DNA of 64,000 nt from Betaproteobacteria bacterium HGW-Betaproteobacteria-7 (GTDB lineage Bacteria > Pseudomonadota > Gammaproteobacteria > Burkholderiales > Rhodocyclaceae). Within the stretch, counting starts at the first letter, position 1, and every line of letters begins with the position of its first letter. Under the pieces are notes generated by a model. It searched no databases. It was not told the DNA's origin and saw only the letters and a list, made by a program, of their open reading frames with translations. Location of the stretch: contig PHCE01000002.1 of NCBI GenBank assembly GCA_002840765.1, positions 310,001 through 374,000 on the forward strand, read 5' to 3'. Both the position numbers and the translations under genes were made by a program. Of this stretch, positions 3,236 to 56,455 are shown piece by piece.

Positions 3236-3245
3236 TCTGGAGGAA

Positions 3246-3421
3246 GGCCCCCGCAAGTGCCGTCAGGCCGGCATCCTGAACCTGGGTCCAGAGTGGCTGC
3301 TTTCCTCCCGCTTCAGGCCCCCGCGACGAAGCGGGCGCACAACAGCGGTTTCGATGGTCAGCAACCGATGCCAATCAGCATTGGTTCAAGGAATGTATGG
3401 CCTTAACAAACACCGCAGGGG
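3246..3421 (-). ncRNA. ssrS: 6S RNA
   Basis: 6S RNA binds the housekeeping RNA polymerase holoenzyme by mimicking an open promoter. The call rests on three observations. It lies between zapA and a strong terminator, the standard ssrS position. Its ends can pair: CCCCTGCGGTG near the 5' end against CACTTGCGGGGG near the 3' end. Inside these, CCTTGAACC pairs with GGTTCAGG, giving the long rod-like hairpin with a central bubble expected of 6S. The 5' half reads TGCGGTGTTTGTTAAGGCC. The ends are estimated from pairing and may be off by several bases. No promoter was assigned; it may lie inside zapA. Confidence 0.85.
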
Positions 3422-3455
3422 ACGCTCGGCGGGCGGCGCCGGGATCAGTAACAGC

Positions 3456-4018: not shown

Positions 4019-4109
4019 GGACTAAGCTCCTATTCTAAAAGTGGTTTATAGAAACCGGCTCAGACATTTCAGATGCGTTGCCGGGCATGCCGATGTAGAA
4101 TTCGCGCCG

Positions 4110-4296
4110 TTTCAGGTGCTGCGCGCGGTTTCGCCAAACGCAGTTAAACGGGAAAGCGGTGCGTCGCCCAAGCGACCAAGCCGCTGCTGCCCCCGCAACG
4201 GTAAGCAAGTGCGGGCGTATCACGAAGCCACTGGGGTCATTCCTGGGAAGGCGATACGTCAAGACTTGCGAGCCCGGATACCGGCCTGCGACAACC
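4110..4296 (+). promoter_or_regulatory. cobalamin riboswitch, copy 1
   Basis: Adenosylcobalamin-type aptamer with the conserved core visible: GGGAAAGCGGTGCG, the stretch CTGCCCCCGCAACGGTAA, and the B12 box GAAGCCACTGGGGTCATTCC followed by GGGAAGGCG. Between the aptamer and the receptor gene lies a hairpin (CCGGT at 4342-4346 with GCCGG at 4361-4365, plus an inner GCG/CGC pair) immediately before the ribosome binding site GAGGAAGGA and the ATG at 4379. There is no U tract, so translational control is more likely than termination. High cobalamin should repress the receptor. A second copy at 6592 is nearly identical. Confidence 0.95.
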
Positions 4297-4378
4297 AGCG
4301 GATGTAGCCTTCTCCCTCGGCATTTCCTTTTTCAATGCATTCCGGTATGCGGGGACGCCTGCCGGGAGAGGAAGGATC

Positions 4379-6541: not shown

Positions 6542-6591
6542 GCAGACACAGCACTGCCGGCCGATGCCGGCAGCAGGTAAAATACCAGTTG

Positions 6592-6778
6592 TTTCAGGTG
6601 CTGCGCACGGCCTCGCCAAGCGCAGTTAAACGGGAAAGCGGTGCGTCGCCCAAGCGACCAAGCCGCTGCTGCCCCCGCAACGGTAAGTAAGTGCGGGCGT
6701 ATCACGAAGCCACTGGGGTCATTCCTGGGAAGGCGATACGTCAAGACTTGCGAGCCCGGATACCGGCCTGCGACAACC
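6592..6778 (+). promoter_or_regulatory. cobalamin riboswitch, copy 2
   Basis: The same 187-base aptamer as at 4110, with five single-base differences found by eye (four in the first 40 bases and one near the middle). The B12 box is identical. The expression platform is shorter: copy 1 carries about 25 extra bases between aptamer and hairpin. Here the hairpin CCGGC (6799-6803) with GCCGG (6818-6822) directly abuts the ribosome binding site GGAAGGAG and the ATG at 6835. It is expected to repress the BtuB-like receptor, and perhaps the following ABC and cob genes, when cobalamin is plentiful. Confidence 0.95.
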
Positions 6779-6834
6779 AGCGGATGTTTCAATGCATTCC
6801 GGCGTGCGGGGACGCCTGCCGGGAAGGAGAATCC

Positions 6835-54856: not shown

Positions 54857-55543
54857 ATGAACACCGCCATTCTCGAGTTGCCGCACGAAATCCCCGAATG
54901 GCGGAGGAGCGGCCATTTTCTGGCACTAGCGGCAGGCCTGCACGCGGCAGTTCTCTTCTTCCCGATGCGCGAAGCCCTGGGCAAGCTGGAATTGCCGCCG
55001 CCCGCCAACATCATGGTTCGCCTCGTCGCCGCGGAAACGCCGGCCCAGCCGGTGCCCATGCAAGCCGCTCCGGCCGTCACCGCGCAACCTACCGCCCCAC
55101 CGGTGCGGCGCCAAATGCCGCCCAGCCCCCCACGCCTGGCCATGGCGCCGCAACAGGTAAGCGAAGCAGCGCCATTCACCGTCCCGGAAACGCCGGTCGC
55201 CGAGGTCGCCAGTGCTCCGGTGACGGAAGCCCCGATTGCCGCCCCGGCACCGGCCAACCTGACGCCGGCACGCTTTGACGTCGCCTATTTACAGAATCCG
55301 CGGCCGAACTATCCCTCCCTGTCGCGGCGCCTCGGGGAAGAAGGCAAGGTACTGTTGCGTGTCCTGGTCAGTCCGCAAGGGCAGGCGCTGGCCGTCGATC
55401 TCGAGCGCAGCAGCAACTTCGCCCGGCTCGACGATGCCGCTCGCCAGGCGGTCGCCCGCTGGCGTTTCGTACCAGCCAGGCGCGGTGAACAAAGCATCGA
55501 GGCAGCGGTGATCGTTCCCGTGGTCTTCCGCCTGGACAGCTGA
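54857..55543 (+). CDS. tonB: TonB energy-transducing protein
   Basis: A 228-residue TonB with one N-terminal membrane anchor (about residues 19-37), a Pro/Ala-rich spacer (~70-135) and a C-terminal TonB domain (YPSLSRRLGEEGKVLLRVLVSPQGQ ... AVARWRFVPARRG). It lies 36 bases after the Crp/Fnr gene and likely energises the copper receptor. No exbB/exbD is adjacent, so it must use a motor encoded elsewhere. Confidence 0.88.
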   Translation: MNTAILELPHEIPEWRRSGHFLALAAGLHAAVLFFPMREALGKLELPPPANIMVRLVAAETPAQPVPMQAAPAVTAQPTAPPVRRQMPPSPPRLAMAPQQVSEAAPFTVPETPVAEVASAPVTEAPIAAPAPANLTPARFDVAYLQNPRPNYPSLSRRLGEEGKVLLRVLVSPQGQALAVDLERSSNFARLDDAARQAVARWRFVPARRGEQSIEAAVIVPVVFRLDS

Positions 55544-55560
55544 CGGATTCCAGACGTGAC

Positions 55561-55582
55561 GACGGGGACCGAAGTCCCCGCC
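55561..55582. terminator. stable hairpin between tonB and the tmRNA gene
   Basis: GACGGGGAC and GTCCCCGCC form a nine-pair stem (one mismatch) with a CGAA/TTCG loop, lying between the convergent tonB and ssrA genes. Neither side has a good T tract, so it may end tonB weakly or belong to the 3' part of the tmRNA transcript. Confidence 0.45.
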
Positions 55583-55802
55583 GGCTATCTTTGGTAACAA
55601 GGCTCTAGCAGCCCCGGCTAACCGTTTTTAGGCGGCAATAGCGAATTGCTCGCCTGACGAGTTGCCTGCGCACCTTTGCCCGCCCTGTCGAAGCCAGTGC
55701 ACCCCCATCCAAACACACTGTCGCCAATGCCCTTGGGTGGAGGTGAGGGGAATCGAACCCCTGTCCAGAACGCCTCCAGATTGCCGGAATTACAACCATG
55801 CT
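55561..55802 (-). ncRNA. ssrA: circularly permuted, two-piece tmRNA
   Basis: Read on the minus strand the acceptor half comes first: from AGCATGG (55802) through the T arm GGGGTTCGATTCCCC to CACCTCC (55745-55739) and discriminator A (55738); the next bases are CCC, so CCA is not encoded. After an intervening stretch (about 55737-55707) the coding half starts with GGGGGTGCACTGGCTTCGAC (55706) and contains AAGGTGC. The 5' GGGGGTG and 3' CACCTCC pair as a 7-bp acceptor stem with a G3-U70 wobble, the alanyl-tRNA synthetase identity pair. A frame ending at TAA (55630-55628) reads EQFAIAA, a plausible tag end; the tag start and the 3' end are uncertain. Confidence 0.88.
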
Positions 55803-55806
55803 TTGA

Positions 55807-55835
55807 ATTATGGGGGCGGGTAGGGGGTTTTACAA
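55807..55835 (-). promoter_or_regulatory. promoter of the tmRNA gene
   Basis: TTGTAA (55835-55830) and CATAAT (55812-55807) with a 17-base spacer lie on the minus strand; the expected start near 55800 coincides with the beginning of the acceptor half. Confidence 0.65.
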
Positions 55836-55855
55836 GGCCGAGGCGCTAGCCTTTT

Positions 55856-56455
55856 TCAGCCGAGTTCGCGTTCGGCGCTGAGCAGGCGTTCGCAGTAGCG
55901 GGCGATCAGGTCCACTTCCAGATTGACCTTGGCGCCTGGCTTGAGCAGGTGCAGCGTGGTGTTTTCCAGGGTGTGTGGGATCAAATTGATGGTGAACACC
56001 TGGCCGCTGACGTCGTTGGTCGTCAGGCTGGTGCCATCGACAGCGACCGAGCCCTTGCGCGCGATGAACTTGGCGATCTCCTTGGGGGCCAGGATTTCCA
56101 GCATCCGGTTGTCGCCGACCGGATCGAAACGCAGTACTTCGCCAACGCCGTCAACGTGGCCGGAAACCAGGTGGCCGCCGATGACATCGGACAGGCGAAG
56201 CGCCTTTTCCAGATTGACCGGGCCGGGGGCATCGAGGCCGACGGTACAGGACAGCGTTTCCGGCGACACATCGACCATGAACTGATTCCCGTCCTTGCCG
56301 ACAACGGTCAGACAGACGCCGCTGTGGGCGATGGAATCGCCGATGGCAACATCGTCGATGCCCAGCTTGCCGGCATCGACATGCAGGCGGAAACCGGCTT
56401 CGCGGGTGGTGAGGTGAGTGATGCGGCCAACCGCCGCGATAATTCCAGAAAACAT
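55856..56455 (-). CDS. ribE: riboflavin synthase alpha subunit
   Basis: A 199-residue enzyme converting two molecules of 6,7-dimethyl-8-ribityllumazine to riboflavin. It has the typical internal duplication: MFSGIIAAVGRI...DSIAHSGVCLTVV in the first half and HLVSGHVDGVGEV...GSVAVDGTSLTTNDV in the second. Length is slightly short but complete. No FMN riboswitch was seen in the 56456-56597 gap, which otherwise holds only the leaders of the two divergent genes. Confidence 0.95.
   Translation of the reverse strand: MFSGIIAAVGRITHLTTREAGFRLHVDAGKLGIDDVAIGDSIAHSGVCLTVVGKDGNQFMVDVSPETLSCTVGLDAPGPVNLEKALRLSDVIGGHLVSGHVDGVGEVLRFDPVGDNRMLEILAPKEIAKFIARKGSVAVDGTSLTTNDVSGQVFTINLIPHTLENTTLHLLKPGAKVNLEVDLIARYCERLLSAERELG

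Follow-up and report, generated by a model that had tools for sequence, protein, structure and literature searches.

The locus at positions 55557 to 55848 of the window (the whole 64,000-nucleotide stretch that was analysed) holds a two-piece tmRNA gene with a short coding half. This raised the question of whether the organism carries a reduced tmRNA with a short tag, or whether the short form belongs to the assembled record of its genome (G000; 4.40 Mb in 36 contigs, listed as 100% complete). A sequence-only reading had placed the locus in the permuted two-piece class with the acceptor half first on the minus strand, and had described the coding half as short and poor in pseudoknots, with an unusual tag end, EQFAIAA.

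A permuted tmRNA gene of betaproteobacterial type

The class assignment was borne out. The beta-type permuted tmRNA model RF01850 matched over its full length at 55848-55557 on the minus strand (248.7 bits, E = 2.2e-79, gathering threshold 84), and a second model, RF04321 (tmRNA_permuted), matched the same locus with 109.8 bits. By contrast with these models, ARAGORN called one tRNA-Val and no tmRNA in the window. On the minus strand the acceptor half came first, followed by a spacer and the coding half. The gene is thus a member of a known split class, the permuted two-piece tmRNA of betaproteobacterial type. The gene and its neighbours were laid out as follows.

55856 to 56455, minus strand: ribE, riboflavin synthase, the upstream neighbour (TIGR00187, NF006767)
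55802 to 55848, minus strand: promoter-like stretch with CATAAT at the upstream end of the RF01850 match, covering model positions 1 to about 48
55736 to 55801, minus strand: acceptor half with T-arm, acceptor strand CACCUCC at 55745-55739, A73 at 55738, then C-C (from the sequence and the RF01850 alignment)
55707 to 55735, minus strand: intervening spacer of about 29 bases between the paired acceptor strands, predicted to be cut out
55557 to 55706, minus strand: coding half, starting with GGGGGUG at 55706; 150 nt, against 189 nt in the relative G002
55649 to 55652, minus strand: junction of a 39-bp deletion, its placement ambiguous by two bases (GA)
55628 to 55651, minus strand: remnant of the tag frame, E-Q-F-A-I-A-A-stop, with the A-N-D codons gone; ARAGORN read ANDEQFAIAA at the same place in relatives
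54857 to 55543, plus strand: TonB-family protein gene (TIGR01352), convergent with the tmRNA gene

The stretch CCCCCATAAT in the upstream part recurred in most aligned relatives, and this region with its CATAAT would act as a promoter. The two halves were joined by a 7-bp acceptor stem, GGGGGUG with CACCUCC, in which the third pair was G3-U70 and whose pairs were present in the RF01850 alignment. The stem was followed by A-C-C-C, so that the last base of CCA was not encoded; both features had been read correctly from the sequence. When the two pieces were folded together the acceptor stem paired, a result that was uninformative on tagging. Removal of the spacer and processing into two pieces would be expected from what is known of this class. 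The gene resembled other betaproteobacterial permuted tmRNAs (RF01850 beta_tmRNA; RF04321) in gene order, tRNA-like halves, G3-U70, 3' hairpin and the C-terminus of the tag. Elsewhere in the window we found a 6S RNA gene (3244-3424, minus strand) and two cobalamin riboswitches (4097-4303 and 6579-6785), both on the plus strand and separated by about 2.5 kb.

Only one locus in G000 exceeded the RF01850 threshold. The one-piece tmRNA model RF00023 gave 14 matches in the genome, none of them at cut-off; when four of the 14 were rescanned together with a weak second RF01850 match, one was the tmRNA locus itself and the others were tRNAs. A DNA search of G000 for a second copy of the coding half found none, the next best match being 27 nt long at 85% (E = 0.17). 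The covariance search and the check for a one-piece ssrA elsewhere, which had been proposed as tests of the sequence-only reading, were therefore both in its favour. Among the partners of ribosome rescue, SmpB was present in G000 (195.3 bits, 149 aa, alignable and with no internal stop), as was ArfB (180.9 bits, cut-off 100). ArfB exceeded its cut-off in 23 of the 37 genomes searched (G000 and 22 of the other 36). ArfA as a backup was found in none of the 37, E. coli being the only control detected. A 16S gene, sought as a hint of MAG or isolate origin, was not found in G000 by a search that also missed five of 14 control genomes.

The 39-bp deletion in the coding half

The RF01850 survey of 60 genomes gave 26 permuted tmRNAs over cut-off, those of G000 and 25 same-genus relatives; the cut-off was reached by none of the 24 other-family genomes in the survey. 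In the alignment all 25 relatives had 39 or 40 bases where G000 had none. The distance from GGCAACTCG to GCAATTCGC was 17 in G000 and 56 in G002, giving a deletion of 39 bp. Unlike in the known betaproteobacterial permuted tmRNAs, these bases were gone between the pseudoknot 1 region and the tag codon E. Lost with this stretch were the 3' strand of pseudoknot 1, the resume codon GCC with the frame signal ahead of it, and the two tag codons that follow GCC. The CGUC/GACG pairing of pseudoknot 1 in the Rfam model accordingly had no 3' strand in G000, and the tag frame with its resume codon and upstream signal, present in all 25 aligned relatives, was absent from the assembled sequence. Judged from its letters, the gene as written would not be expected to tag in the normal way. 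In the given letters the coding half was indeed short and pseudoknot-poor, but this had been misread: it reflects a private 39-bp deletion that includes the resume codon.

With the resume codon lost along with the sequence ahead of it, EQFAIAA was taken as the leftover of a tag of the ANDEQFAIAA type, not as an alternative tag. Nor was its end unusual, as had been supposed. ARAGORN was run on 19 of the 25 relatives, and in all 19 the tag had the form ANDE(Q/H/R)FA(I/V)AA, read as ANDEQFAIAA, ANDEHFAIAA, ANDERFAIAA or ANDERFAVAA. The end was FAIAA in 16 of the 19 and FAVAA in the other three; FAIAA is the norm of the genus.

The junction was clean and the remainder of the gene was conserved. 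Outside the deletion, G000 had one private base at otherwise invariant columns, compared with 0-9 in the other rows, and this base was also found in the permuted tmRNA of a viral contig, L258. The tmRNAs described as lacking a coding sequence (in mitochondria, two Mallomonadaceae plastids and phage DS6A; described in parts of PMC11915505) are likewise without a normal tag frame. However, those have no coding sequence at all, whereas the G000 gene still has the tag end, its stop codon and the 3' portion of the coding half, and its same-genus relatives have the full form.

The short form was found in none of the other genomes searched. Its pattern occurred in one of 399 genomes of the order, which was G000 itself, in a sample that held only five other same-genus and seven same-family genomes and in which few were likely to have a permuted tmRNA. 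A looser pattern run on GTDB r220 gave 97 stretches, five of them with weak context words and none of the 97 with the tmRNA D-loop motif upstream, and the short-form search of IMG/VR gave no matches; both collections may omit records close to the window's own genome. Carriage of the short form by viruses was rejected on this IMG/VR result, together with a search there for the conserved tmRNA pattern, which returned one contig, L258, with a full tag segment. L258 (IMGVR_UViG_3300045950_000336) carried a complete-looking permuted tmRNA with a tag frame read as ANDERFALAA, and may be host DNA beside a prophage.

Deletions elsewhere on the contig and the origin of the gap

The contig of the tmRNA gene was compared with two relatives, using G000 C10:1-450000 (20 stretches and the window) and 400 kb each of G014 and G018. 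An earlier frameshift screen was too noisy and was replaced, since stops and splits arising from spurious antisense ORFs turned up in G000 and in its relatives alike. The comparison rested on 300 gene-anchored three-way DNA alignments that covered 163.9 kb of G000, with some spurious ORFs among the anchors. Private gaps of at least 10 bases with well-matched flanks were listed in nine rows (five in G000, three in G014, one in G018), and four rows at the edges of anchor ORFs were dropped (G000 407210; G014 192836 and 204952; G018 215130). After this filtering G000 retained four private deletions (28, 69, 62 and 85 bp), G014 retained one, of 12 bp and in frame, and G018 retained none. The four deletions in G000, with gene names taken from the relatives' proteins, were as follows.

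G000 C10:220632: 28-bp deletion in an RNase II-like gene, from the three-way alignment (only sub-threshold matches to the RNase II/R family)
G000 C10:248599: 69-bp deletion, in frame, in the NADP malic enzyme gene (relative's protein NF009501, 1178.8 bits, cut-off 1178)
G000 C10:383462: 62-bp frameshift deletion in atpA (relative's protein TIGR00962, 811 bits)
G000 C10:385781: 85-bp deletion across the start of atpD (relative's protein TIGR01039, 696 bits)

The only close match to atpA in the G000 genome (91%; the next were 33% and 27%) was recognised only from residue 36 on, and the frame that begins at its own start codon stopped after 47 residues. The start of atpD that was found in both relatives did not occur in the 450-kb stretch of G000 under comparison. 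From sequence alone, shortened AtpA and AtpD products made from later starts are possible, but a living 4.4-Mb bacterium with lesions in both atpA and atpD is hard to accept.

The deletion sites were also compared for DNA shared between species, as the fraction of 21-mers within 80 bases of each site that occurred in the G014 or G018 stretches. This was 0.43 at the RNase II-like gene, 0.04 at the malic enzyme gene, 0.61 at atpA, 0.69 at atpD and 0.64 at the tmRNA gene. At 300 random sites the fraction had a median of 0 and a 97th percentile of 0.28, and it reached 0.60 at most. Four of the five deletions therefore lay in unusually conserved DNA, the malic enzyme site being the exception, as would be expected if words shared across species had confused the assembly. 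Among the permuted tmRNA matches of the genus, six of 26 ended at the edge of a contig, and in G026 the contig broke off at the right-hand edge of the 39-bp deletion, to within a few bases.

Since conserved genes on the same contig (atpA, atpD, malic enzyme, RNase II-like), essential ones among them, carry similar gaps, we judge the loss in the tmRNA gene to be most likely an assembly error. The loss of the 39 bp is probably an artefact, most likely not shared by the living genome, and the organism would have an ordinary beta-type permuted tmRNA. The gap would be one of a series of deletions introduced at assembly, mostly at sites of unusually high conservation between species. Some observations count against an artefact: the malic enzyme site lay outside the DNA shared between species, its lesion was in frame and might be real, and the 12-bp case in G014 shows that natural private indels also occur in coding DNA. 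The curators of a tmRNA database report that tmRNA genes from certain older MAGs can carry large internal deletions, and they reject such cases (PMC11915505). Like those, the present deletion was private, internal, in the coding portion and visible only against relatives; those come from older MAGs, whereas the G000 record may or may not be a MAG. Given this probable assembly error, the gene is kept among the permuted tmRNAs although the assembled sequence lacks a tag frame. In the organism, processing would split the transcript into acceptor and coding pieces, and the two would pair into a tRNA-like domain that is presumably charged with alanine by way of G3-U70. The paired RNA would then bind SmpB, enter stalled ribosomes and add to the stalled peptide a tag of the ANDEQFAIAA type, as the full tag frames of close relatives suggest.

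It is unlikely, though the best placed of the alternatives, that the deletion is real and recent and has left a tag-defective tmRNA. The gene would then be a fresh pseudogene, or its product would accept the peptide with SmpB without resuming in a set frame, and ArfB would serve as a backup. The clean junction, the conservation of the rest of the gene and the presence of ArfB fit such an event, and bacteria without functional ssrA or smpB exist, as noted in passages of PMC4131195. Against it, the same contig carries the atpA frameshift and the lost atpD start, and the gap in the tmRNA gene resembles these lesions.

Far less probable is a working minimal two-piece tmRNA, in which a 4-bp CUCG/CGAG hairpin would replace pseudoknot 1 and translation would resume at GAG to add the seven-residue tag EQFAIAA. 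An A does stand at -4 of this GAG in the tag frame, and for E. coli the relevant part of PMC2481249 gives the A at -4 (A86) as the main frame signal, with C at -5 tolerated and the -1 triplet minor. Chance alone is, however, likely to place an A in frame at -4 of one codon or another, and the GAG would be paired within the predicted new hairpin. In E. coli, single-stranded RNA can stand in for pseudoknot 1, but tagging is almost lost in E. coli chimeras when pseudoknot 1 and the linker are changed together (both from PMC4236655), and here the entire linker before the resume codon is missing. Two-residue tags are reported in other bacteria, with 25 sequences, commonly in Fermentibacterota (from an excerpt of PMC11915505), which makes a tag below ten residues, such as seven here, imaginable. 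Those tags are known from 25 sequences, whereas the present form comes from one genome with its resume region deleted. Searches of 399 genomes from the order and of GTDB r220 and IMG/VR, two collections that may omit near records, gave the form in G000 only, and all of the assembly evidence counts against it too.

That this copy is a leftover beside a second, intact tmRNA is hardly credible: one-piece tmRNAs occurred in eight of the 60 genomes searched in the genus and tmRNA genes are described as frequent targets of genomic islands (in parts of PMC11915505), but G000 had no second RF01850 locus, no over-threshold RF00023 match and no second coding half in a record listed as 100% complete.

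tmRNA variation in the genus and use of the record

The permuted form was present in 25 of the 35 same-genus relatives of the RF01850 survey, and a one-piece tmRNA exceeded the cut-off in eight of 60 genomes of the genus that were searched for it (G011, G015, G016, G017, G020, G029, G031 and G453). One-piece and permuted forms therefore split a single genus, which points to recent gain, loss or replacement.

The permuted gene of another same-genus genome assembled as a single contig (L020, G024:C1:329279-329605) carried private bases at nine columns that were otherwise invariant; one base was missing from its T-arm, and its promoter region differed. In its acceptor stem, a change of C to T was matched by a change of G to A that preserves the pair. 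G024 had no one-piece tmRNA over the cut-off, and L020 may be a diverging or decaying copy. In G003 there were two partial permuted tmRNA matches (C52:1-312 and C78:4-129), as expected of either an island inserted in the gene or a split assembly. The part of the gene after the stop codon fell into two sequence types (L013, L016-L019 and L021-L023 against the other rows) that were uncoupled from the first half, as in L013 and L009. This suggests that the 3' part has been exchanged, perhaps by island insertion.

Until its reads have been checked, the G000 record should not be cited as a case of a short-tag tmRNA or of tmRNA loss, and any other conserved gene that looks odd in it merits equal suspicion. 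The gene itself adds one further sequence to a known class, and the lesson is methodological. Where loci are highly conserved, as tmRNA, atpA and atpD are, an assembly can drop tens of bases with no mark of a gap, and such an unmarked loss can mimic a new RNA variant or the loss of a gene.
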